This document shows positions 27,248 to 45,388 of a DNA stretch of 64,000 nt, piece by piece. The stretch lies in contig CALKGM010000002.1 of NCBI GenBank assembly GCA_938084675.1, positions 62,001-126,000 on the forward strand, in the 5' to 3' direction. The translations under genes and the position numbers were made by a program. The notes beneath the pieces are model-generated. The model did not search any database. It was not told the origin of the DNA and saw only the letters and a list, made by a program, of their open reading frames with translations. This stretch comes from Candidatus Poseidoniaceae archaeon (GTDB taxonomy: Archaea; Thermoplasmatota; Poseidoniia; Poseidoniales; Poseidoniaceae). Position 1 is the first letter of the stretch; the number at the start of each line of letters is the position of its first letter.

Positions 27248-30200
27248 ATGCGCCAGCCATCTCAATCCCAACCATCTCCCACTGGAGCCAGTCTGCTTTC
27301 CTTGATGCTCATTTTTGGAATGTTGATGGGAGTTGTAGCCCCATCTGCTCAAGCCGTTGGTCCGAACCAAAATGACCTGAACTCCAGCGGTGACCTGCCG
27401 GATAATACTTCGGTCAGTGTCACCAACTATATTTTCTCCAGTACCTTCAGTGGTAGCGGAGAATTGGATATTGGCGATGATAATGATTACTTGCGGGTTG
27501 CTTTGACTTCTACACAAGGCCTCTATGCGTCACTTTCCTTCCCAGCAACCACCACTTATGCCAACGGCACAACGGTGTCAAATGATTTCGACCTGGTCTT
27601 TTACGATGCGAACCAAACTTACATGGATGATTCCATTATGAATAATCCCGAAACTCTCACTACCAACACCACTATCCCTCACGGAGGGATGGTCTACATC
27701 CAAATTGCGCGATATGCTGGAACTGGGACGTGGAACCTCTCTCTCTCCAAATTTACTGTTTCCACCAGTACCGGCGGTGGAGGCGGCCCATCAGTGACGA
27801 ACTGTACAGGAAATGCGAGCACAAACCCTGACATCCTTGAACCAAACGATACCATGGCGACAGCAACTTCTGCTTCCCTGCTCCCGTTGTACTGCACCGG
27901 TCTTTCCATCGATTCAACAGCAGATGAGGATTATTTTGAAATTGACATGATTTCAGGAGTTACATATTACGTCAACTTAACCTTCACCCATGCCAATGGG
28001 GACATCGATGGTCAATGGACGGATGCCAGTGGCTCATCTCTCTCGCTTGCTGGTTTTGGGTCCCTCGGATCTGGTTCTGATAACGAAGCAGCATCATTCA
28101 CCGCTACCAGTAACTTCACTTCTTATCTCAGAATATTCTTGTATGCCTTCAGCAGTGGCACAGCGAATGTCTACGACATCGAACTTTCAACAGACCAACC
28201 TGGTGGTGGGCAAAGTTTCGAGTCTGTGGATGTCACACTCATGAACACCACGAATGGTATGCTTTCCTTTTCCGGCCTCACCGCCAATATCACTTATAAT
28301 TACAATTTCTCTGTCGGGCAGATGCTGCTTGACGATACGGAAAGCTGGGGCAATTCAACCACAGGTTCGTTTAATGCTACCAATACAACACACAGCCTAA
28401 ATTTCACCTACTCGGCACAGATGATTGAGTCTGTTTTGATGGTTTCTTCTAACCTTTTTGATGCCTCTAATTCTTCTCTTGATAGTGACATGGCGGAACT
28501 TTATATCGAGATGCTTCAAATTCAGGCGACCTCTTCTACGACAGGGGATATTGAACTGACCAATCTCACGGTTGGTACCGATTATGAAGTCGGGTGGTAC
28601 GTGATTGATTTCGTAGAATGGGAAAGCAATTTCACCAACTCAAATGACGTCAATGCAGCCATTAATGCTTCAATGATCGACAGTGATACCTGGTATCTTA
28701 CACCGTCGATGACCTCAATGAGTTACCAGATCAACTGGACCGGTCCAACAACGATGAACGACCATCTTTTCCTCGCATTTATTTCACTGAATGGCTCGGC
28801 AATCAACCTTAGTGACAACACGAATATATCCGGTCTTCACTTTGAGGATTTCATTCCTCAACTGCCGGCCCTTGTCATTAGTTCTTACTCGGCCAGTTCA
28901 ACGTCTTCAACGAACAATGTCCGAGCCCAAGGTATGGACTTAGTGACGGGTGACAGTTACATGTATCAATATCGTGTTGAGGATTCTGGAGGGGCAAACC
29001 TTGCAGTTTCAACTATGACTACGGTGACTGCGACTGCACAAAACATGTCTCTCCCTTACTTCAATTATACAACTCCGTCATCTTCTGGAATCTATTGTGT
29101 CTTCGCTGACCTCTATTCGTCTGTGAACGTCCAACTCATTGGAGATTCTGATTGTTTCACACTTACCTTAGATGATGATAACGACGGTGTTGCAAATGAA
29201 CTGGATTTGTGTGCTAACACGACTGCTGGAGCAACCGTGGACCTCAATGGTTGTGCATTAAATCAGAAGGACAGTGACGGGGATGGATACAACGACAGCA
29301 CCGATGATTTCCCTTATGACTCCAGTCAATATTCAGATATGGACGGGGACGGCTATGGTGATAATCCAAACGGAAATGCATCGGATGCATTCCCCTCAGA
29401 CGGTTCACAATGGAACGATGCAGATGGGGATGGCTACGGTGACAATCCAACCGGAACAACTCCCGATGCTTTCCCAACAGACCCGACACAATGGTCCGAC
29501 GCAGATGGAGATGGTTACGGAGATAATGCAAGCGGTAACAATCCCGATGAATGGCCTGCGGACTCAACACAATGGGAAGACATGGACGGAGACGGCTACG
29601 GTGACAATCCATCCGGAACCAACGGAGACGCCTTCCCGAGTGATTCCTCTCAATGGTCGGACGCAGACGGTGACGGCTATGGAGACAACCCTGCAGGTAC
29701 AACACCCGACGCTTTCCCTTCAGACAACACACAATGGGAAGATGCAGACGGTGATGGTTTCGGCGATAATCCAACCGGTACAAACGGAGATCAGTTCCCT
29801 TCAGATGCCACACAATGGTTCGATGAAGACGGTGATGGATATGGTGACAACCAAGCGGGAACCGATCCCGATGCGTTCCCTACCGACTCAACCCAGTGGA
29901 GCGATGTTGATGGTGACGGCTATGGTGATAACGCAGCCGGAATGAACGGTGACGCTTTCCCTAACGAACCAAGCCAACATGCCGACCAAGATAACGACGG
30001 CTTTGGCGACAATTCAAGCGGGCTGAATGGTGACCAATGCCTTGGTACGCCACCTGGACAAGTTGTAGATTCAACCGGATGCGCCGCTTCTCAACTTGAT
30101 GCCGATTTGGACGGAGTTGACGACGCCGCTGACGCGTGCCCCGATACACCAGCCGGAGAACAGGTAGACAATGTCGGCTGTTCCTCCAGTCAAGAAGACA

Positions 30201-31330
30201 GTGACAATGACATGGTGATGAATGCGTTTGATGCATGTCCAAACACTCCACTCGGCTTCCAAGTCGACGCAGCGGGCTGTGCACTCAGCCAACTTGATAC
30301 AGATTCCGATGAAATCACAGACGACCGTGATGACTGCCCTACGACAACCGCAGGCCTACCTGTTAACGGTGTTGGGTGTGCCGCAAACGAGCGTGATACA
30401 GATGGAGACAATGTCTTCGATGCCAGCGACATTTGTGATTCCACTCCCACGAATGAAATTGCTGATGCCCAAGGATGCGCTCCTTCACAAAAGGACTCGG
30501 ACGGCGATGATGTGTACGACGACGTTGATAGTTGCCCAGGGACAGGGAATGATTTGGCCGTGGATATGCTCGGCTGTGCTACCAATCAATTGGATGCAGA
30601 TAATGACGGTATTTCAGATGCAAGCGATTCTTGCCCTGTGACTCCTGTTGGCGAGCAACCCGATTCAGAAGGCTGTTCTGCTTCACAGAAGGACGAAGAC
30701 CTTGATGATATTATGAATAACATGGATCTCTGTCCTGACACTCCAGTGACCCAACCTGTTGACCTCGACGGATGTTCTGACCAACAAAAGGATGATGATA
30801 ATGATGGAATCAAGAATCACCTTGACAATTGTCCAAACACACCGGTAGGTGAACTGATTGACGCGAGTGGTTGCGCACTGTTGCAGTTGGACTCGGATGG
30901 AGATGGAGTCAGCGACGCAGAAGACGCCTTCAAGTATGATTCTAATTTGTCGATTGACACCGATGGTGATGGAGTTGCTGACAGTTTGGATGCGTACCCT
31001 GAGGATGGAACTCGTTCGGCCATAGAGGCTGTAGAATCTGGAAACGGCATGCTCTATGCAATTATCACGCTACTGGTTCTTGCTCTCCTCGGCGGAGGAG
31101 GATTTGTGTTCATGCGAAAGCCGGATGATGCTTCAGACATGTTTGAATCCAATCCGACTACAGATTCTGCTTCAGAACAGTTTGCTGCTCAAGAAGAAAA
31201 GTCACTCCCTTCAATACATTCCACACCTGAGCAATGGGAGGAAAACGGTGTGCACTGGTCCCGTGACGGGGAAGGAAATCTATCCTACTTCGAGGCAACC
31301 TCACAAGAATGGGTTCCTTTCGAATCTTGA
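27248..31330 (+). CDS. Giant surface protein with PPC-like domains and thrombospondin-3-like repeats
   Basis: A 1360-residue secreted, membrane-anchored protein. A signal peptide (SLLSLMLIFGMLMGVVAPSA) is followed by two PPC-like beta domains (DEDYFEIDMISGVTYYVNL is typical), Asn/Thr-rich beta regions with many N-x-S/T sites, and two repeat blocks. The first has eight 27-residue units (DGDGYGDNP, then DAFPxD and QW). The second has eight 33-residue units with two Cys each (DxDxD, CPDTP, GC). Asp spacing is that of calcium-binding thrombospondin type 3 repeats. A membrane helix (MLYAIITLLVLALLGGGGFVF) and a cytoplasmic tail with PEQWEENGVHW follow. It is likely a stalk or adhesin at the cell surface. 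Confidence 0.85.
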   Translation: MRQPSQSQPSPTGASLLSLMLIFGMLMGVVAPSAQAVGPNQNDLNSSGDLPDNTSVSVTNYIFSSTFSGSGELDIGDDNDYLRVALTSTQGLYASLSFPATTTYANGTTVSNDFDLVFYDANQTYMDDSIMNNPETLTTNTTIPHGGMVYIQIARYAGTGTWNLSLSKFTVSTSTGGGGGPSVTNCTGNASTNPDILEPNDTMATATSASLLPLYCTGLSIDSTADEDYFEIDMISGVTYYVNLTFTHANGDIDGQWTDASGSSLSLAGFGSLGSGSDNEAASFTATSNFTSYLRIFLYAFSSGTANVYDIELSTDQPGGGQSFESVDVTLMNTTNGMLSFSGLTANITYNYNFSVGQMLLDDTESWGNSTTGSFNATNTTHSLNFTYSAQMIESVLMVSSNLFDASNSSLDSDMAELYIEMLQIQATSSTTGDIELTNLTVGTDYEVGWYVIDFVEWESNFTNSNDVNAAINASMIDSDTWYLTPSMTSMSYQINWTGPTTMNDHLFLAFISLNGSAINLSDNTNISGLHFEDFIPQLPALVISSYSASSTSSTNNVRAQGMDLVTGDSYMYQYRVEDSGGANLAVSTMTTVTATAQNMSLPYFNYTTPSSSGIYCVFADLYSSVNVQLIGDSDCFTLTLDDDNDGVANELDLCANTTAGATVDLNGCALNQKDSDGDGYNDSTDDFPYDSSQYSDMDGDGYGDNPNGNASDAFPSDGSQWNDADGDGYGDNPTGTTPDAFPTDPTQWSDADGDGYGDNASGNNPDEWPADSTQWEDMDGDGYGDNPSGTNGDAFPSDSSQWSDADGDGYGDNPAGTTPDAFPSDNTQWEDADGDGFGDNPTGTNGDQFPSDATQWFDEDGDGYGDNQAGTDPDAFPTDSTQWSDVDGDGYGDNAAGMNGDAFPNEPSQHADQDNDGFGDNSSGLNGDQCLGTPPGQVVDSTGCAASQLDADLDGVDDAADACPDTPAGEQVDNVGCSSSQEDSDNDMVMNAFDACPNTPLGFQVDAAGCALSQLDTDSDEITDDRDDCPTTTAGLPVNGVGCAANERDTDGDNVFDASDICDSTPTNEIADAQGCAPSQKDSDGDDVYDDVDSCPGTGNDLAVDMLGCATNQLDADNDGISDASDSCPVTPVGEQPDSEGCSASQKDEDLDDIMNNMDLCPDTPVTQPVDLDGCSDQQKDDDNDGIKNHLDNCPNTPVGELIDASGCALLQLDSDGDGVSDAEDAFKYDSNLSIDTDGDGVADSLDAYPEDGTRSAIEAVESGNGMLYAIITLLVLALLGGGGFVFMRKPDDASDMFESNPTTDSASEQFAAQEEKSLPSIHSTPEQWEENGVHWSRDGEGNLSYFEATSQEWVPFES
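29342..29989 (+). repeat. Eight in-frame 81-bp tandem repeats (27-residue units)
   Basis: Eight consecutive units, each beginning GAC/GAT-GG-GAC-GG and encoding DGDGYGDN, a Gly/Asn/Thr turn, DAFPxD and TQWxD. Third-position drift among units shows old duplication under protein-level selection. A ninth, degenerate unit follows. Confidence 0.9.
30092..30883 (+). repeat. Eight in-frame 99-bp repeats (33-residue, two-Cys units)
   Basis: The period is exactly 33 codons for eight units. Each unit starts Q/E-x-D, carries a D-x-D-x-D calcium-like loop, C-P near position 16 and G-C at positions 29-30. A related unit precedes the 27-residue block near 29171 and a partial one follows at 30884. Confidence 0.9.
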
Positions 31331-31951: not shown

Positions 31952-32022
31952 AGATTCTAAGATTGACCAACGCAGGGGACAACTCTAAATCATCGTGAAA
32001 CGGCCTCGGAATGCTGGTGCAA

Positions 32023-33846
32023 ATGTCAAATGACGAATTCGCCGAATTTGAAAGTATATGGCCCAAAGCGCCAACAGAAGAAACCACACCTGAACAACCA
32101 GTCATTTCAGATACTTCGGCAAAAAGTAACCTCTTCCCTGTTCTGGCAGTGGCAGGGCTGTTGTTGGTAACCATCACTTTGGGTGGTATCTATAGCTTGA
32201 TTAGCGGGAGTGACATGAACCAAGACGATGTTGATGGAGACGGCATTTTTAACCTCATGGATTCCTGTTACGATGGGGAACGAGATTGGACATCTTCTCT
32301 TGATACAGACCATGATGGTGACGGTTGCCGCGATGCCTCAGAGGATGATGATGATGATGATGATGGGCTTCCAGATGTGAGTGACAATTGTGCTACAGGC
32401 GAACTTGACTGGCTACGTAATTTTAACACGGACCGTGATGTAGACGGTTGCCAAGATGCTTCTGAGGATGATGACGACGACAATGATGGTGTGAATGACC
32501 TCATGGACCTTTACCCGCTTGACCCGACTGAATGGGCAGATTCCGACGGTGATGGGACAGGGGATAATGCGGACCCATTCCCCAATGACGCTCTTGAATG
32601 GCAGGATTCCGACGGCGACGGGCATGGCGATAATTCTGACCTGTTTCCTACAAATCCACTTGAATGGGTTGATTTTGACCAAGACGGGCTAGGGGATAAT
32701 GCAGACCAAGACGATGATAACGATGGAGTTCTTGACACTTATGACATCAATGATTCTCGGGATTCTGCGATTTACATCCGTCTTGAAAGGTTCAGCTTGT
32801 TGGATAATGTTGACCTCTTTGACAGCGTAGGAGAAATCTATTTCTGTACGAGTGTGAACAATATTTCCATTGGGTGTATGCCATCGTATATGTCCAATTA
32901 TGTTGAGGTTGAGACTGGAACAGAAGTACTTCTCAATGAAAATTATCACATCGACCTTGAAGAAAACTTGCGGTATCATTTTATTGAAATTACAGCCCAT
33001 GATTCAGACGCCTTTTCTGATGATGTATTGGATCTCAATCCCCTTCCAAATGTTGAGGCAATCGAATTTACCTTTGACAGTTTGACAATGTTTGAAAATT
33101 TGAGTCTGCTGGGTAACGGCTCAGCTGATGGCGAGAAAGACGACGGTGTTTTGCAATTCTCAATTCAGCCCTTTGACAACCTGGTGAGCAACGTCCGCGA
33201 TTACTACTGGGACTTTGAGGGCGCTTACTACAGTCTTTCATGGGTGCTCAATTACAGCACTTATGCATCATATAGAACTATGAATCACGCCATTGATTGG
33301 TCCAATGCTGTGACCTACGATGACATCATCCCTCAGTATGCAGCCTTTTCCACTCCTAATGAACCAGCAATCGGGGAACTGGCGTTAGAATTGCAATCCA
33401 TGGCTCAAGAAAACGGGTATACCTCAAACAATGATGTTGCCCGATTTATACAGGCATTTGTAGGAGATATTCCTTATCTTTATGATTTAGACAGTTCTCA
33501 AGAACAAACAGAATACCCAAAATATCCAATTGAAATGTTGTGGGAAGAGGGAGGGGATTGTGAAGATGCAAGTGCGCTATACATCAGTTTAGTCGAACAT
33601 CTTGGCTATGATGCTGCTCTTATGCTTGGAGATGTCAAATCCAACGCCGACGAAGAATGGGGAGGTCATGCCTGGGTTGTCATCGCCATGGATAATTATT
33701 CAGGAGATGGGTACATGGGCGAAGGTGACAAATCCAATGTCATGTATTATTTCGTAGAAACTACAGGTCACTATGATGGTTCATCCGATATCGGAATCAA
33801 TCCTTGGTACGATATGATGGATGAAGTATTCTACGACGTCGAGTAG
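32023..33846 (+). CDS. Membrane-anchored extracellular protein with calcium repeats and transglutaminase-like domain
   Basis: A 607-residue protein. An acidic cytoplasmic N-terminus precedes a signal-anchor helix (LFPVLAVAGLLLVTITLGGI). About 170 residues of Asp-rich thrombospondin-3-like loops follow (DTDHDGDGCRDASEDDDD and WADSDGDGTGDN), then a beta domain. The C-terminal transglutaminase-like cysteine protease fold shows GGDCEDASALYISLVEHLGY with the catalytic Cys, GGHAWVVIAMDN with the His, and a later acidic partner. Such domains cleave or cross-link proteins; here it faces outward. ATG 32023 is preferred over 32011 because MSNDEFAEFE resembles a natural N-terminus. Confidence 0.8.
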   Translation: MSNDEFAEFESIWPKAPTEETTPEQPVISDTSAKSNLFPVLAVAGLLLVTITLGGIYSLISGSDMNQDDVDGDGIFNLMDSCYDGERDWTSSLDTDHDGDGCRDASEDDDDDDDGLPDVSDNCATGELDWLRNFNTDRDVDGCQDASEDDDDDNDGVNDLMDLYPLDPTEWADSDGDGTGDNADPFPNDALEWQDSDGDGHGDNSDLFPTNPLEWVDFDQDGLGDNADQDDDNDGVLDTYDINDSRDSAIYIRLERFSLLDNVDLFDSVGEIYFCTSVNNISIGCMPSYMSNYVEVETGTEVLLNENYHIDLEENLRYHFIEITAHDSDAFSDDVLDLNPLPNVEAIEFTFDSLTMFENLSLLGNGSADGEKDDGVLQFSIQPFDNLVSNVRDYYWDFEGAYYSLSWVLNYSTYASYRTMNHAIDWSNAVTYDDIIPQYAAFSTPNEPAIGELALELQSMAQENGYTSNNDVARFIQAFVGDIPYLYDLDSSQEQTEYPKYPIEMLWEEGGDCEDASALYISLVEHLGYDAALMLGDVKSNADEEWGGHAWVVIAMDNYSGDGYMGEGDKSNVMYYFVETTGHYDGSSDIGINPWYDMMDEVFYDVE

Positions 33847-33852
33847 GTCGTA

Positions 33853-35079
33853 TCACGTAAGCACTTCAAGCAAACGATCTTGCTCTACAGCCATTCTTAG
33901 TTCCATGGCAATGCGTCGTCCGCTGGACATTGGTTTTCTCCATGTTGCATTCCCATAGGGGTGGCCTACGCTAACGTGAACGTTGGTACCGCCGCCCAGA
34001 CGAGGTGCAACATCGTAGATGTAGTAATTCATGTCCTTGTCGATACAGGTTTGGAGGCAAAACGGCCCAACAATTCCTGGGTCGTAATGTTCTTTGCTTG
34101 CTTCGATGAACTTTTCTCCCAATTCAAAGGCCTTCTCAAGGAGTGATTCTCGGATTGTAGCAGTGTTATGTCCAACCACTGTCATCTCTGGGATTTGTTG
34201 GTGAAGAGGCATTGTCATCTGTTGTGGTGCAGGGAGCCTGACATGTCCGTCAAGAGATGATTCGAAGCGCCAATCCACGCCCAAGAGTTCCAACCGTTCT
34301 CCTTTCTCAGCAAGAGGGCTGTAAAAGAAGTTCAAGTTGAATACAGGCCCAATGACATACCGTTCAATTCGGGCACCGTCGAGGGACTCTTGGTCAATGA
34401 CTCCTTCAGCAAGGAGTGCGGCTGATTTTTCTTGGTATTCTTTGTATGATGCACAAGTGAAGAATCCTCGTTCAAGCTTCTTCTGTGCGTGGTGAAGTTT
34501 GACGATAACCAGGCAATCAATGTCTTCCGGTGAAGGTATGGCTTCTGGATATGGGAGTCCTGCCTTCTCTAAAATCCAGTAATAATCTTGTTCTTCGGTC
34601 CGCTCCTCCATTCGTAGCATGTTTCTTGAACCAAACATTGGGACTCTGAAATCATCTTCAATATCTGAGATTTTTGAATATGATGTGAACGACCGGTTAG
34701 GGATGTAAATGACGTTCCTCTTCCTCATTTCATCTTGCATGCTGGGTTTCATTACGTCGTTGAATTCGTTAAGGACAATGGCCTTGTCAACCATTCCCCT
34801 AACAACACGTCCGGATGAATTGCGGTGAGTTTTGAAGTAGTTTGCATAGGTTTTGTGTCGTCCTTCTTTGCAGTAGGCAACTGTTGGAAAGCCCTCTTCA
34901 ATAGCCCCGTCGCAGATGTCCAGTGCAGAATGAGATGCAGTCATACCGATCCGCAATTTGAGGCGGTCATACTCTTCTACAATGCCTGCAATTTCGTCGT
35001 TCTGAATCATCAGGCTCACCTTGGTAAACTGATTGCTGTTAACGGGGGTCTTTGAGGTGTTCCCCATTTCATTCTTCAA
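33853..35079 (-). CDS. purP: PurP: formate-dependent AICAR ligase (FAICAR synthetase)
   Basis: A 408-residue ATP-grasp enzyme of archaeal purine biosynthesis that formylates AICAR using formate and ATP. Seen: IGMTASHSALDICDGAIEEG (family: ATLASHSALDI), LLGVDWRFESSLDGHVRLP, VGHNTATIRESLLEKAFELG, GIVGPFCLQTCID and DVAPRLGGGTNVHV. The start overlaps the coiled-coil gene stop (ATGA); an internal ATG at 35007 (MIQNDEIAGI) is where most family members begin, so the first about 24 residues are uncertain. Confidence 0.93.
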   Translation of the reverse strand: MKNEMGNTSKTPVNSNQFTKVSLMIQNDEIAGIVEEYDRLKLRIGMTASHSALDICDGAIEEGFPTVAYCKEGRHKTYANYFKTHRNSSGRVVRGMVDKAIVLNEFNDVMKPSMQDEMRKRNVIYIPNRSFTSYSKISDIEDDFRVPMFGSRNMLRMEERTEEQDYYWILEKAGLPYPEAIPSPEDIDCLVIVKLHHAQKKLERGFFTCASYKEYQEKSAALLAEGVIDQESLDGARIERYVIGPVFNLNFFYSPLAEKGERLELLGVDWRFESSLDGHVRLPAPQQMTMPLHQQIPEMTVVGHNTATIRESLLEKAFELGEKFIEASKEHYDPGIVGPFCLQTCIDKDMNYYIYDVAPRLGGGTNVHVSVGHPYGNATWRKPMSSGRRIAMELRMAVEQDRLLEVLT

Positions 35080-35951
35080 TCAAATCGCTGAAGTTGCATC
35101 AATTCTTCTGTTGAAAGTGTTTCACCAGAGAGCAACTTTGCCATCAAATCTTGAGTTTCATTGCTTGCAGTGGGGCGTTGGCCTTGTCCAGCACTTGCTC
35201 CTCGCATGGCTCGCAATATGTCCTGAATTGAGTGGAGGCATCGGAGTGAGACAATGTACAAACTGTGTTCCTTGTCCGCCTCTTTCTTTGAAGTTCGCAG
35301 TCGTCGGTGAGCGGCTTCTGCTTTCTCTCGTTGGCGGTCAACTTCGGAGTTCCACTCGATCATCAAATCGTGAGCGCTCTGAGCAGCCTCTGCCGCTTCC
35401 TTAACAGCATTGTGAGCTGTATCCTGCTTGATCATGGCCTCTCGTAGCGCTTCGTTTCCTTCTGTCTCGCCGCTTGCGGTTTGGGAGTCCTTTAGTTTAC
35501 GACGCTTTGAGCTCAGTTCCTTCATTTTCTTGAAGTACTTCGTTTCGTTTTTACCTTGGTGCTTTCCTTGTTCGAATTCACGCTCAAGTCGTTCCATGGT
35601 TCTGGTCAACGATTGGACAGTATCTGGGCGAATAGGTCGTCCACGCTTGTCCAATTGCGGGGGTGCTTCAGGTTGTGTACCCCGGATTGCGTCCTTCGCA
35701 TCTCGGACCATCTGATTTGCATCTTCACGTTCCTTTTTCTTGTCACGAACTCGCTCGTTCATGTTGTCTCTTAGTTCGCGTTGCTCACGTACTTGGACAA
35801 TGAGCTCACGAACTTCGTTGTTAAGTTCGTTACGGGTTGAGGTAAATTCCTTGGTTTTCTCGTTCCAATCGTCTCGAATTTCGCGGTGATGCGTGGCCTT
35901 TTCGTCAACCATTTTTCGTCGCTCGTTCAGAAGATCTTTGAGTTCTGCCAT
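35076..35951 (-). CDS. Archaeal coiled-coil protein (COG1340-like), copy 1
   Basis: A 291-residue protein, almost entirely charged coiled coil (long Glu/Lys/Arg heptads from residue 1 to about 240), interrupted by a Pro-rich loop (GTQPEAPPQLDKRGRPIRPD) that would form a hairpin tip. The C-terminal motif LMAKLLSGETLSTEELMQLQ is shared in form with the TUTase-like protein at 36908-38929. It is of the type widely conserved in archaea and annotated only as coiled coil. The ribosome site is AGGTGAG. It overlaps purP. Confidence 0.8.
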   Translation of the reverse strand: MAELKDLLNERRKMVDEKATHHREIRDDWNEKTKEFTSTRNELNNEVRELIVQVREQRELRDNMNERVRDKKKEREDANQMVRDAKDAIRGTQPEAPPQLDKRGRPIRPDTVQSLTRTMERLEREFEQGKHQGKNETKYFKKMKELSSKRRKLKDSQTASGETEGNEALREAMIKQDTAHNAVKEAAEAAQSAHDLMIEWNSEVDRQREKAEAAHRRLRTSKKEADKEHSLYIVSLRCLHSIQDILRAMRGASAGQGQRPTASNETQDLMAKLLSGETLSTEELMQLQRFD

Positions 35952-36057: not shown

Positions 36058-36414
36058 CTAGGCCAAGTTGTGCAGCGATTCAAGGCATGTTTCTGCTGTT
36101 TGGCGGACCTCGCCGAGATTGGTGGAAGGTCCGCAGTGTACCGCAAGGTGTAGGCGTTCGCCACGGTGGAGGATGACCGAACCATGTTCCATGATGAATG
36201 TTAGGCGGTTTGATTTTGGAGAGGCATCCAATGCTGAAATCCAGCGGGACATCTGTCCGTCTTCATTTGTGGTATCCTCATTTGAACGATACATGACAAA
36301 AGCATCGTTTTCAAACAGTGTGACGCTTTTTACGCCTGCAGTACCCACAAGCGGCATCATCGTTCGCTGGAGCATGATTAACCCAACAACCGCGAAAGCG
36401 AATAAGACTTTCAC
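36058..36414 (-). CDS. Small protein, possibly roadblock/LC7-like
   Basis: A 118-residue product. From residue about 14 it alternates predicted helix and strand: MMPLVGTAGVKSVTLFEND, then a charged loop, RLTFIMEHGSVILHRGERLHL and NLGEVRQTAETCLESL. That order (helix, GVxxVxL strand, later strands, NLGxVR helix) resembles roadblock/MglB regulators of small GTPases. The likeness is weak and by eye. The start overlaps the GNAT stop (ATGA); a start at 36375 is possible if the hydrophobic N-terminus is not used. Confidence 0.45.
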   Translation of the reverse strand: MKVLFAFAVVGLIMLQRTMMPLVGTAGVKSVTLFENDAFVMYRSNEDTTNEDGQMSRWISALDASPKSNRLTFIMEHGSVILHRGERLHLAVHCGPSTNLGEVRQTAETCLESLHNLA

Positions 36415-36911
36415 TCGTCAATGTAGCGAAGAAGGGGCCCTCGCATCATGTATCCCATGCCGGATTGGTAGTATCCCTCAAGATGCTTACGAACTGTCAT
36501 ACCGCGTCGTTCATAAAAGCGCTGAGCACCTCGATTACTCGCTTTTACTTCCAACTGAACTTGCTTGTATCCCGCTCTGAGTGCCGCATCAACGAATCGG
36601 TTCCAGGCTTCAGTACCCAACCCTCTTTTTTGCTGTTCAGAATGGATAACAAATGCAGCAACTCTGACGATATCATCCATGAAAGGGGTTGCCCATAACA
36701 ACCCGACAATGTGGTTTTCACCATTGGATGTTGTATCGGTGAGAATCAAATTTCCTTCCCAGTTAGGTATAGGTAAATGGCGTACAGTAGTATCGGAATA
36801 GCGCTCTCCAGTCTCGTTCAAAAAAAGAGTAAGAACCTGTTGACATGCAGCACTACTCATGTTTTTAGGCTCAATACCTTGGTTCCAAACAGGGGTGGGC
36901 ACGGCTCTCAT
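36411..36911 (-). CDS. GNAT-family N-acetyltransferase
   Basis: A 166-residue acetyltransferase. VAAFVIHSEQQKRGLGTEAW carries the acetyl-CoA pyrophosphate loop (Q/R-x-x-G-x-G/A, here QKRGLGTE), followed by LEVKASNRGAQRFYERRGM, the standard fourth-motif strand and helix with N, A, FY and GF/M positions. The substrate is unknown; the RimI-like form suggests a protein or amino group. The start overlaps the TUTase-like stop, and the gene continues into the 36058-36414 gene, so all three are likely one transcript. Confidence 0.85.
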   Translation of the reverse strand: MRAVPTPVWNQGIEPKNMSSAACQQVLTLFLNETGERYSDTTVRHLPIPNWEGNLILTDTTSNGENHIVGLLWATPFMDDIVRVAAFVIHSEQQKRGLGTEAWNRFVDAALRAGYKQVQLEVKASNRGAQRFYERRGMTVRKHLEGYYQSGMGYMMRGPLLRYIDE

Positions 36912-38929
36912 TCCTTCTTTGAATTCTGCCTTCCTTGGCCCCTTTTACCTCTACGAACTTGATAGTTCGAAGACTTATTCTTCCGTCGTTTATTCTTTTG
37001 TTGAGAGGCCGTGTCCTCCTTGGAAGTGCCCATATTGAGAACTCCTCCGTGCTGTAGCAATGTGCTCAGGTCATCCATTGAAAGTGCCTCGCCAGAATTC
37101 ATTTTTTCCTTGACTTCGCTGGGTTTTGGACCTCGGTTTTGGCGCTTCTCGCCCTTGTCTTTTCGGCGAGTGTTCTTACTTCCATTTTTAATCCGTATCC
37201 AGGATTCGAGCCGTCCTTTTTCTCGACGAAGAAACCTTGTATTCTTGCGGTTTGAGCGAATCTTTCGTTTGACGTTCTTCTCAGATTTGTTGAGGTGTTT
37301 TATGTTGCCGTGGAGGGGTTTCTTGATGTAGTGAATTTCTCTGTTGAGTCGGTCAACTTCTTTTCCAATCGGAACCATCTCTTGAAGTTCAAAGAAGAGT
37401 GAAGCCAATTCTTGTTCCCGTTCAAGAAGTGGAATGTTCATGACGTCCAACTGCTCTGTAATCCGGCCAAATGTTTGCCGAAGTGTTTCTGAAATTTTTG
37501 GAGATGAGATGACGATCTTGCTAACCAGTTCATCTCGCTTCAAAATCAGTTCGTCAAGTTGGGATTTGGATTCGCTGATTTCCGTAGATACCAGTTCATC
37601 ATCTTCGATTGCTCCCTCAGGCGGCGTATCCCGCTTTCCTAAAGCAAATTGGATGGCTTGGCCTATGGAACGGCGTTGAGAACTCAACCTTACTCCATCT
37701 TCCTCTGACCTTGTGAGTTGGTCAATGGTTTCTTGATGGAGAGCGTTGATCCTATCCATCGGTAAAGTTCGTAAATCCTCAAAGAGGTCAAATTGCTTAA
37801 TCTCAGTAGTGGCTTCTTTTTTGCTGAGTTCAGCCCAAGGCGCACCATTGAGCATGCCAATCCATGCCTTGAGCACTTCTTCTCGGATGGTTAGGTAACC
37901 CGATGGCCTCAGCACTCGGCTCAGGTCATGATGAAGCGAAAACGGGTCCTCTATGGGCATGCTATGTTCTCCGAGCCTGCGGTCAAGGTGGTCCGGTACC
38001 AATGCCCATGCATCAGGCTCCCCTTCATCCCATCTTTTTTCGATTCGAGGAATGGTACCTCCATTCCGGATTGAAACGACGTCCTGCTCAAACGGCCAAT
38101 CAAATACCATCCGCCTGATAAACGAAACAAAGCAGGATGCATGGTCCAAGGTTGGCTCCCAAGGCGATGTGGGTTTAGAGTGAAACCCTACGTTGTAATC
38201 ATCATCGAGCTTGAGGATATTTGGTTTGGCATCGTCCTGCAGATTTGGGAGGTTAATATGCGGGTCAGTCTGCATGCTTCCAATCGCAAGAAGGGTCCAC
38301 GCATACGATGATAGTGTGCCCATGAAGGCTTGATTAATCGCTCTAGAGGATGCCCAGTACTTTATGGAAAGCACACCGTTCCTAACCATGGGATGTGTGT
38401 CGGCATAAGCACGAATAAGTTCAGTATTGTACAATGCAAGTTCATTGTTGACAGAGATATCAATAGGAAGTCCAGTTTCTGGGTCTTTGAATTTAATGAT
38501 GGGCACTTTCGCTCGACCAATCACTTCGATTTCAGTCATTTCTAAACTGCTCAAGATGTTTCGAACTTTATTCAATATTTTACGGGGCGATGGCGCATCA
38601 ACGACCAAGCATAAGTCCAAATCTCCGACACCTAATGACGTACGAGACTGGGTCGATCCAAAGGCATGAAGTTGACTTCCGTTGAGTTTTCTCTCAATAT
38701 TTCGCTTCAGATGTTGATAGATTCGGTCCCTGGCCTTTGTCTCTTGTTGACTCATCCGAGAGGTGCTTATGGAGGCCTTTATCTCATCAGATAGTTCTTT
38801 CAAGTAGTCTTGGTCAATGGAATTGATATCTCCAAGTTCTAGGGTTCCCAGTTGGTGTGAATGCAACAAAGGCCACTGTTTCTGCTGTGCGGCAGAAAAT
38901 CCAGTATGAGGGCAAATCTCACGACTCAT
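36908..38929 (-). CDS. Cid1/TRF4-like terminal nucleotidyltransferase (predicted TUTase/poly(A) polymerase)
   Basis: A 673-residue protein with a eukaryote-type non-canonical polymerase core. Seen: HAFGSTQSRTSLGVGDLDLC with catalytic D103 and D105; ARVP-like RAKVPIIKFKDPETG; third acid D157 in PIDISVNNELALYNT; VLSIKYWASSRAINQ; FMGTLSSYAWTLL; and the PAP-associated motif IEDPFSLHHDLSRVL (residues 327-341). His334 aligns with the Cid1 histidine that favours UTP. The C-terminal half is coiled coil, then MNSGEALSMDDLSTLLQHGG and a very basic tail (KRRKNK, RRGKRGQGR), suited to RNA binding. ATG 38929 with GGAGG is preferred over a start at 38971. It likely adds nucleotides to RNA 3' ends. Confidence 0.85.
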   Translation of the reverse strand: MSREICPHTGFSAAQQKQWPLLHSHQLGTLELGDINSIDQDYLKELSDEIKASISTSRMSQQETKARDRIYQHLKRNIERKLNGSQLHAFGSTQSRTSLGVGDLDLCLVVDAPSPRKILNKVRNILSSLEMTEIEVIGRAKVPIIKFKDPETGLPIDISVNNELALYNTELIRAYADTHPMVRNGVLSIKYWASSRAINQAFMGTLSSYAWTLLAIGSMQTDPHINLPNLQDDAKPNILKLDDDYNVGFHSKPTSPWEPTLDHASCFVSFIRRMVFDWPFEQDVVSIRNGGTIPRIEKRWDEGEPDAWALVPDHLDRRLGEHSMPIEDPFSLHHDLSRVLRPSGYLTIREEVLKAWIGMLNGAPWAELSKKEATTEIKQFDLFEDLRTLPMDRINALHQETIDQLTRSEEDGVRLSSQRRSIGQAIQFALGKRDTPPEGAIEDDELVSTEISESKSQLDELILKRDELVSKIVISSPKISETLRQTFGRITEQLDVMNIPLLEREQELASLFFELQEMVPIGKEVDRLNREIHYIKKPLHGNIKHLNKSEKNVKRKIRSNRKNTRFLRREKGRLESWIRIKNGSKNTRRKDKGEKRQNRGPKPSEVKEKMNSGEALSMDDLSTLLQHGGVLNMGTSKEDTASQQKNKRRKNKSSNYQVRRGKRGQGRQNSKKE

Positions 38930-39458
38930 GTTGAGATCCTCCGTTTGTCTTCCTTTGTCGTGCAAGAGCATAACTGGATTTTCCTCCTTCTTTCACTCGT
39001 CGTGCATCACTGAGCAAATGGTCAAATCCTTGTTCCAAGACTAATTCCCAATACTCAATCGAGCGTTGACAGTCGTTCAACGCCATGGTGAGTCGCTTGG
39101 TTCGTGAGTCGCTTCTTCGTCGGAACAATTCATTCTCAAGATATTCATGTTCTGACTTTTCGGCATTTTCCATGAACTGTTCACGTTGAACGAGGAGTTC
39201 TTGATGCTCGGAAGTACCCTCGTCAAAGGACTTGAGTTTGTTTGAAAAGGCTTCAAGCTCAGATTTTTGGAGGTCCCTTCGCTGCTTTGCATCTCGGGCT
39301 AATGCTTCAGCGGTTTCCTTCTCATCTTTACGTGCGTTGAGTTGCTTTGGAATCATTTCGGCAAGCCTTTCCCTTCGGTGAAGGATGGCCCGAATCAACA
39401 CTTCGGGCGCGACTTCCAGCAAACGCTCGTCCTGCATTGATTGTGGGGGGTCGTTCAA
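38919..39458 (-). CDS. Coiled-coil protein upstream of TUTase-like gene
   Basis: A 179-residue, highly charged helical protein. Heptads run through about residues 25-150 (ARKDEKETAEALARDAKQRR and ENELFRRRSDSRTKRL). No catalytic motif is seen. Its end overlaps the start of the nucleotidyltransferase by 11 bases, so it is co-translated and a likely partner. The start could also be MQDERLLEV seven residues later. It is divergent from the 39529 surface protein. Confidence 0.7.
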   Translation of the reverse strand: MNDPPQSMQDERLLEVAPEVLIRAILHRRERLAEMIPKQLNARKDEKETAEALARDAKQRRDLQKSELEAFSNKLKSFDEGTSEHQELLVQREQFMENAEKSEHEYLENELFRRRSDSRTKRLTMALNDCQRSIEYWELVLEQGFDHLLSDARRVKEGGKSSYALARQRKTNGGSQHES

Positions 39459-44386: not shown

Positions 44387-45388
44387 ATGCGCGGGCAGAG
44401 AGATGACGGGCAACCCAACCCAGATGCAGAACTTCTTGACCAACTCCAGTCGATGGAGGGCAAGGTCCGCAAGATGCGTGAGAATCGTAATTCTCAACGT
44501 GAACAGGGTAAGGCTGTGGCTCAAAAAAGGAACGCTGTTCAGGAACAATATCGCGAGCACAAGAAGAAGCTTGATCTGATGAAAGCCGAACTTGATGCAA
44601 TTCACGCAGAACGCAATTTGCACAAAGCAAAGCGAGATACCATCCAAGCCCAACTCAGAGAATTGATTGGTCAAGCAAAAGGTCGTAGGAATGAGAAAGG
44701 AGACAAGAAATCTGCAACTGCAGAATACTCCCAACTTATGAGCGAAATTAACTCCCTTGAAGAAAAATTCCAAACCACTTCCTCCAGCACCAAAAAAGAG
44801 AAAGAAACCATGGAGCGAATCAAGCGAATGAAGCGCCGAGTCGGTGAATTGGAACCAGAAGTCGTCAAGTTTGAGATGGTCAGCGTAGACCTTTCAAACC
44901 TTGATGAGGCCATCAAGACCTTGAAATCAGAAGCAGACGATGCTCACAAAATGTTTGTTGAAGCATTGAAGCGTGCGGATGCCAAGTGGGCAGAGTACAA
45001 AGAAGGGCTTGACCACCGGAATTTCCTCAAAGCTGAAGGCGACCGACATCACCTTGAATCCGTTGAGTTCCATGAAAAGGCGAACACCATTCACGCCAAA
45101 ATTGAGGAACTCATGGTCGATGTCAACAAAGCTCGTGACCAACTCAACCTCGCTGTAGAAGAACGTAAATCTTGGATTTCCGAACACAACAATGCCGTCA
45201 AGGCAGAGATGAAGACAGGTGCTGAATCCGATGAAGTCGCAGAAAGCCTCGTTCAATCTTTATTGAAAGATGGTGAGTTGATGTTTGGCGGCTTGGGTAA
45301 GAACGATACTGCATCCTCTGCCGCGCGTACTTCTCCTTCATCAAAGAAGAAGAACATGCGCCGTCTTGGTCCCATACGCCGCCGCTGA
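44387..45388 (+). CDS. Archaeal coiled-coil protein (COG1340-like), copy 2
   Basis: A 333-residue, nearly continuous coiled coil from about residue 10 to 290, with conserved short insertions (IGQAKGRRNEKGDKKSATAE) like those of copy 1 at 35076-35951. The C-terminus has LVQSLLKDGELMFGGLGKND, then TASSAA and a basic tail (SKKKNMRRLGPIRRR). The TUTase-like protein ends with a similar LSTLLQHGGVLNMG, KEDTAS and basic tail. The gene lies 12 bases before the sugar nucleotidyltransferase. Function unknown; an RNA or ribosome link is inferred from the shared tails. Confidence 0.78.
   Translation: MRGQRDDGQPNPDAELLDQLQSMEGKVRKMRENRNSQREQGKAVAQKRNAVQEQYREHKKKLDLMKAELDAIHAERNLHKAKRDTIQAQLRELIGQAKGRRNEKGDKKSATAEYSQLMSEINSLEEKFQTTSSSTKKEKETMERIKRMKRRVGELEPEVVKFEMVSVDLSNLDEAIKTLKSEADDAHKMFVEALKRADAKWAEYKEGLDHRNFLKAEGDRHHLESVEFHEKANTIHAKIEELMVDVNKARDQLNLAVEERKSWISEHNNAVKAEMKTGAESDEVAESLVQSLLKDGELMFGGLGKNDTASSAARTSPSSKKKNMRRLGPIRRR

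Follow-up and report, generated by a model that had tools for sequence, protein, structure and literature searches.

A Cid1/URT1-type terminal nucleotidyltransferase fused to a resident coiled-coil protein in Poseidoniaceae archaea

The 64,000-nucleotide stretch of DNA that we analyzed, hereafter the window, comes from a Ca. Poseidonia genome (family Poseidoniaceae, Marine Group II archaea) and encodes a protein in which a complete Cid1/URT1-type, U-transferase-like core is joined in frame to an independent and nearly universal Poseidoniales protein. We consider it probable that the fusion is an active, template-independent RNA 3′-tailing enzyme that most likely adds U, is targeted by its coiled-coil half, feeds 3′ exonucleases and was acquired in a late single gain, most likely from a eukaryote. 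This reading builds on an observed set of motifs, selective constraint, fusion, synteny, distribution and decay of the enzyme, together with a predicted fold, from which we infer that the enzyme is active, which nucleotide and substrate it uses, how it is targeted and coupled to RNA decay, and what the donor was.

The fusion gene and its nucleotidyltransferase half

The fusion gene lies on the minus strand (36908..38929) and encodes 673 aa from a start methionine at 38929, within an open reading frame that extends over 36908..38971 when counted from the first ATG. We retain 38929, the start chosen in the initial annotation, because a GGAGG stands 8 nt upstream of it and the methionine is invariant among the aligned homologues; all residue numbers are counted from this position. 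The N-terminal nucleotidyltransferase, composed of a palm and a PAP-associated domain, spans residues 1-380 (37790..38929, minus strand), and the C-terminal coiled-coil domain with its basic tail spans residues 381-673 (36908..37789, minus strand).

That an archaeon should carry a eukaryote-like Cid1-type terminal nucleotidyltransferase had been proposed in the initial annotation, and domain, profile and predicted-fold comparisons all bear this out. Pfam recognizes MTPAP-like_central (PF22600, 1.5e-28), TUTase (PF19088, 2.6e-6), NTP_transf_2 (PF01909, 6.8e-5) and, right at the cut-off with 22.6 bits, PAP_assoc (PF03828) in the fusion protein, and finds in it neither the tRNA_NucTransf2 (class I) nor the PolyA_pol head (class II) domain. 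URT1 is matched directly by phmmer at 1.2e-32, and the solved proteins closest to the enzyme half are URT1, TUT7, TUT4, Cid1 and CutA. A family profile built from 22 archaeal homologues and searched against the PDB retrieves TUT4 (9.5e-86), TUT7 (1.1e-84), URT1 (1.4e-73), CutA (7.3e-61) and Cid1 (1.4e-59), with no CCA enzyme at E<0.001, and in bit scores it places URT1 (251) and Cid1 (205) above GLD2 (179) and Trf4 (93), canonical poly(A) polymerases being marginal. Set against Cid1, TRF4, GLD-2 and CCA enzymes, the family therefore falls on the Cid1/URT1 side, so that the Cid1 part of the originally suggested Cid1/TRF4 label holds, whereas its TRF4 part is weaker than the resemblance to URT1, TUT4/7, Cid1 and CutA. 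In line with these results, the AlphaFold model (mean pLDDT 86) contains the two-domain Cid1-like fold, and its top Foldseek matches are URT1 and Cid1, ahead of CutA and TUT7, with the URT1 and Cid1 alignments to this predicted model reaching target TM scores of 0.79-0.89 over ~340 columns at ~26% identity.

The window protein carries the Pol-beta palm signature, with a GS motif and the DxD...D triad formed by D103, D105 and D157, as well as the NNxLALxNT and GTLSSYxW helices, the IEDPF element of the PAP-associated domain and H334, each where it had been placed at the outset. H334 aligns with the histidine of Cid1 IEDPFEISH and URT1 IEDPFETSH, as anticipated for the UTP-selecting residue; it corresponds to Cid1 H336, and PDB entry 4fhx, which comes from a study that names the mechanism of UTP selectivity in its title, is the Cid1 H336N mutant. 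Among 43 representative homologues, obtained by greedy clustering at 85% identity, G91, S92, D103, D105, D157, N162, N168, K190, S208, Y209, E327 and D328 are invariant (43/43), and the histidine is kept in 41, the exceptions having R (genus g17) or I (L153). The same picture of conservation holds over 110 distinct ORF strings, some of which are truncated copies of one gene. Between Poseidonia species dN/dS amounts to 0.02-0.07 in the enzyme domain and to a higher 0.05-0.12 in the coiled-coil half, with dS saturated in two of the three comparisons, and the enzyme domain is under purifying selection.

Compared with known systems, the archaeal enzyme shares with URT1 and Cid1 the complete palm and PAP-associated domain, the same catalytic triad and an IEDPFxxxH element with the UTP-selecting histidine, and with URT1 also a GTLSSYA helix, but its palm is joined to the IEDPF element by a different linker, and it has a coiled-coil partner in place of the eukaryotic accessory regions. 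The catalytic module of human TUT4/TUT7 gives the highest total profile score, and TUT4 carries the same histidine in IEDPFDLNH; those proteins, however, are very large and two-module, with accessory zinc-finger regions that the archaeal protein does not have. TRF4/GLD-2 non-canonical poly(A) polymerases belong to the same superfamily and share its motifs but are weaker matches, and archaeal class I and bacterial class II CCA enzymes have the nucleotidyltransferase palm in common with it.

The coiled-coil half and its locus

When the whole fusion protein was searched against 59 relatives, full-length matches appeared in a few genomes and C-terminal-only matches in most. The latter are complete free-standing proteins, mostly of 275-440 aa, which have a common (D)LFxDLR motif at or near their start and, where the enzyme is missing, occupy the same syntenic locus. 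The coiled-coil protein occurs in nearly all Poseidoniales sampled, in both families; outside the order, the rest of the phylum sampled gives only marginal matches, with E above 1e-7, of the sort that coiled coils produce. Most of the order retains this protein while lacking the enzyme, a distribution suggesting that the protein has an older job, onto which tailing was added.

Several comparisons failed to place the coiled-coil half in a known family. It has no Pfam family and no recognized RNA-binding domain, and it is predicted to form long helices for which the predicted-structure search returned no significant or informative match; its similarity to the neighboring DUF7121 protein is weak, hhalign against the DUF7121 alignment reaching 68% by way of the coiled coil and a short GExLSxxEL motif. 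The initial annotation had described a basic, coiled-coil C-terminus, and here the coiled coil is confirmed but strong basicity is confined to the tail: the last 40 residues of the window protein have a net charge of +11, whereas the coiled coil itself is near neutral. A basic tail, with a net charge of +5 to +14 over the last 40 residues, is present in all forms of the coiled-coil protein.

The conserved locus comprises, on one side, the upstream coiled-coil gene, the coiled-coil protein, a GNAT acetyltransferase, DUF7121 and a purP-like gene, and on the other a Zn-ribbon protein, a DtxR-like regulator, a membrane protein, a coiled-coil protein and a nucleotidyltransferase-like gene. In the window, the upstream coiled-coil gene (38919..39458, minus strand, 179 aa) has its 3′ end 11 nt within the fusion gene, an overlap that makes cotranslation of the two probable. 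Next downstream of the fusion is the GNAT acetyltransferase (36411..36911, minus strand), which is kept at the locus in Poseidoniaceae, followed by a small 118 aa protein (36058..36414, minus strand) found mainly at loci of the genus Poseidonia and weakly in one g20 locus, and by the DUF7121 coiled-coil protein (PF23435; 35076..35951, minus strand), whose place at the locus is conserved in both families. Besides the fusion protein, three coiled-coil proteins of the locus (35076-35951, 38919-39458 and 44387-45388), of the DUF7121 type, are mutually related by profile comparison and conserved across the order. Elsewhere in the window, two large proteins (27248-31330 and 32011-33846), in which Asp-rich repeats of the DxDGDGxxD type are numerous, are probably secreted and calcium-binding.

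Distribution, gain and decay of the enzyme

Among 115 relatives, the palm family is found in 28 genomes, all within one family; 27 of these 28 frames measure 691-757 aa, and the last, of 607 aa, runs off a contig end. Every intact enzyme ORF that we found is fused to the coiled-coil protein: those of ~670-760 aa contain the coiled-coil half, and shorter ones lie mostly at contig ends. A survey of 293 genomes of the class produced 106 matches, all from Poseidoniaceae except a marginal one, and a survey of 293 phylum genomes gave, outside Poseidoniaceae, nothing but weak matches to the palm alone, which we took, from their length and position only, for other nucleotidyltransferases, e.g., CCA enzymes. 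The enzyme is absent from the sister family and from the rest of the class and phylum sampled. A prokaryote-wide scan, whose patterns were tuned to this enzyme family such that remote relatives would be missed, returned 97 relatives, and the 80 that were kept are Poseidoniales or marine euryarchaeote records, bar one contig filed as bacterial. Contig L140 (CALDQY010000113.1) has the archaeal gene although it is listed as belonging to a Rhodobiaceae bacterium, and looks misbinned. A viral carrier was rejected, as no relative was confirmed on viral contigs and no viral fold is comparable (best E 1.2e-4, at a target TM of 0.22).

A species tree of concatenated neighboring genes of the locus places the sister family and g5 outside, followed by the enzyme-less g2 and g6, then g16, and then a well-supported inner clade whose sampled genera all possess the enzyme; the relative order of g2+g6 and g16 is left open in this tree, and the branch leading to g5 is very long. 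Three state changes explain all enzyme states on the tree, which fits a history in which the enzyme was gained once, early, then lost all three catalytic aspartates in one genus and was cleanly deleted once within the genus Poseidonia. In each of the five g16 genomes examined, D103 is replaced by G, D105 by E and D157 by R and the IEDPF element is broken, with the domain still fused; in the two tested, Pfam recognition of the enzyme domain is lost. These g16 pseudoenzymes (L174:5151-7148, L175, L176, L177 and L178) are kept in frame, perhaps as a binding domain. In the tree, the 21 Poseidonia genomes without the enzyme group together in a single clade (UFboot 96, SH-aLRT 94), for which one change suffices; in them the coiled-coil ORF directly follows the upstream neighbor, indicating a clean excision of the domain. 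A tree of the enzyme domain reproduces the genera, which agrees with vertical descent once the gain had occurred. Because g2, g5, g6 and the sister family are without the enzyme, a single late gain onto a resident gene within Poseidoniaceae is the simplest account, and since the Cid1-type family is diverse in eukaryotes, the donor was most simply a eukaryote, donor and direction both being argued from distribution.

Two other accounts of the gene's presence in these genomes were weighed against such a gain. Eukaryotic contamination or an assembly artifact, a concern raised by the metagenome-assembled source, has a negligible probability and is ruled out by the synteny, which is kept across genera, and by the single-gain tree; moreover, the enzyme is fused in frame to an archaeal gene with archaeal flanks, evolves under purifying selection and is carried by over 100 genomes. 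These include the complete MG-II chromosome CM001443.1 and the records AG-404-K16 and AG-461-G23, whose names presumably follow the single-cell genome naming convention, and a complete chromosome and single-cell-style records argue against binning artifacts. The gene is not the recent contaminant that the initial annotation had allowed for. An inherited archaeal ancestor of eukaryotic TUTases is very improbable: it would agree with the gene's residence in an archaeon and with the deep divergence within the family, the window enzyme being only 34-41% identical to those of other genera, but neither the sister family nor the other sampled members of the class and phylum have the enzyme, which is fused to an order-specific gene that stands free in outgroups and is gained once on the tree. 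The suggestion that the protein bears on the origins of eukaryotic TUTases is accordingly not sustained; restricted to one family, with sister family and sampled phylum lacking it, a late lineage-specific acquisition does not speak to an archaeal origin of the eukaryotic enzymes.

RNA-decay setting and proposed function

RNase PH-domain proteins occur in 59/59 relatives, three per genome in most, as expected if an exosome is present, and judging by these sequences an exosome appears to exist in every genome examined. Run in reverse, by reverse phosphorolysis, the archaeal exosome (Rrp41/42, DnaG) is a known route of archaeal RNA tailing (PMC4227792), but it has an unrelated RNase PH fold and makes A-rich or heteropolymeric tails, and here it is present in addition to the fusion enzyme. 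An RNB-type exonuclease is found in g1, g3, g4, g17, g20 and a few g19 genomes, and was not found in the sister family or in g2, g5, g6, g16 and g18; in the window genome this protein has 782 aa and scores below the curated RNase R cut-off. The RNB-domain exonuclease at L209:4893-7241, like those of g1, g3, g4, g17 and g20, falls well below both the RNase R and RNase II cut-offs, and an RNB match of 374 bits at G502:C56:555-1559, far above that of any relative, may stem from a contaminant contig. As an obligate partner the RNB exonuclease was rejected: g18 and most g19 genomes have the enzyme without it, and part of Poseidonia shows the reverse. Mainly limited to the inner Poseidoniaceae clade, it overlaps with the enzyme in range but is only loosely associated with it, being neither necessary nor sufficient for it. 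In eukaryotes, oligo-U tailing directs RNA to degradation by DIS3L2 (PMC6240794), a member of the RNase II family (PMC8097288), and the parallel with the archaeal RNB exonuclease is suggestive only.

In the mechanism that we propose, D103, D105 and D157 would support two-metal catalysis, while N168, K190, S208 and Y209 would hold the nucleotide together with the IEDPF pocket and H334 would favor U, so that short, probably U-rich tails would be added to RNA 3′ ends. With its coiled coil and its basic, RG-rich tail, the coiled-coil half would recruit or tether the enzyme to a target RNA or RNP, and the tailed RNAs would then pass to 3′ exonucleases, namely the exosome and, in the inner clade, also the RNB-type RNase. 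Historically, a single in-frame addition, within Poseidoniaceae and most likely by transfer from a eukaryote, would have joined the enzyme domain to the resident coiled-coil gene, before the enzyme was inactivated in one genus and deleted in one Poseidonia subclade.

The nucleotide that is added is where an alternative has most to recommend it. Read from the alignment, H334 suggests a preference for UTP, and the best matches are the U-transferases URT1, TUT4/7 and Cid1; the histidine is not strictly kept, two of 43 representatives having R or I instead. The same enzyme and architecture could instead make A-, C- or mixed tails, as a non-canonical poly(A) polymerase or CutA-like enzyme that primes exosome decay in the manner of bacterial poly(A) polymerase. 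Such tails would suit both the close matches of CutA and GLD2 in sequence and fold and the faster degradation by the archaeal exosome of rRNA transcripts with heteropolymeric tails (PMC4227792), yet with U-transferases as best matches and the histidine retained in nearly all representatives we regard them as unlikely, though worth serious consideration. There is only a slim chance that the protein makes a nucleotide second messenger or is another nucleotidyltransferase, akin to a CBASS cyclase or 2-5A synthetase: it shares their palm superfamily and has a weak NCBIfam CBASS cyclase match (17 bits against a cut-off of 200), but its top matches in fold and sequence are without exception RNA tailing enzymes, and it has the IEDPF element of the PAP-associated domain. 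Even less probable is a tRNA CCA-adding or repair enzyme that replaces the absent archaeal type. Indeed, the class I CCA domain of archaea was found in none of 39 Poseidoniales genomes; 38 of these 39, however, TUTase-less ones included, encode a bacterial-type class II CCA enzyme, which makes service of tRNA CCA ends by the TUTase unlikely and on account of which we rejected this replacement.

Going beyond the probable U-adding tailing enzyme, we tentatively envisage that Poseidoniaceae have a dedicated system for RNA uridylation: a TUTase of eukaryotic type, once captured, would be directed by the order-specific coiled-coil protein and would mark RNAs for exosome and RNB-type decay, the whole having been assembled stepwise and one genus keeping the enzyme as a catalytically dead binding domain. 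To our knowledge, Cid1-type tailing enzymes have been treated as a eukaryotic specialty, and archaeal RNA tailing has been ascribed solely to the exosome working in reverse; an earlier description of a TUTase in these archaea was not found in the open-access literature that we searched. With the fusion protein, a Cid1-type tailing enzyme turns up in a domain of life and in an architecture that are both new for it, through the capture of a domain, probably of eukaryotic origin, by a native gene of the archaea. If our reading is correct, archaeal RNA metabolism would include a second, dedicated tailing route, in a major surface-ocean family, and a U-tail decay pathway would exist outside eukaryotes, with sister lineages in which the enzyme is live, dead or deleted at the same locus providing a natural experiment on uridylation in a prokaryotic cell.
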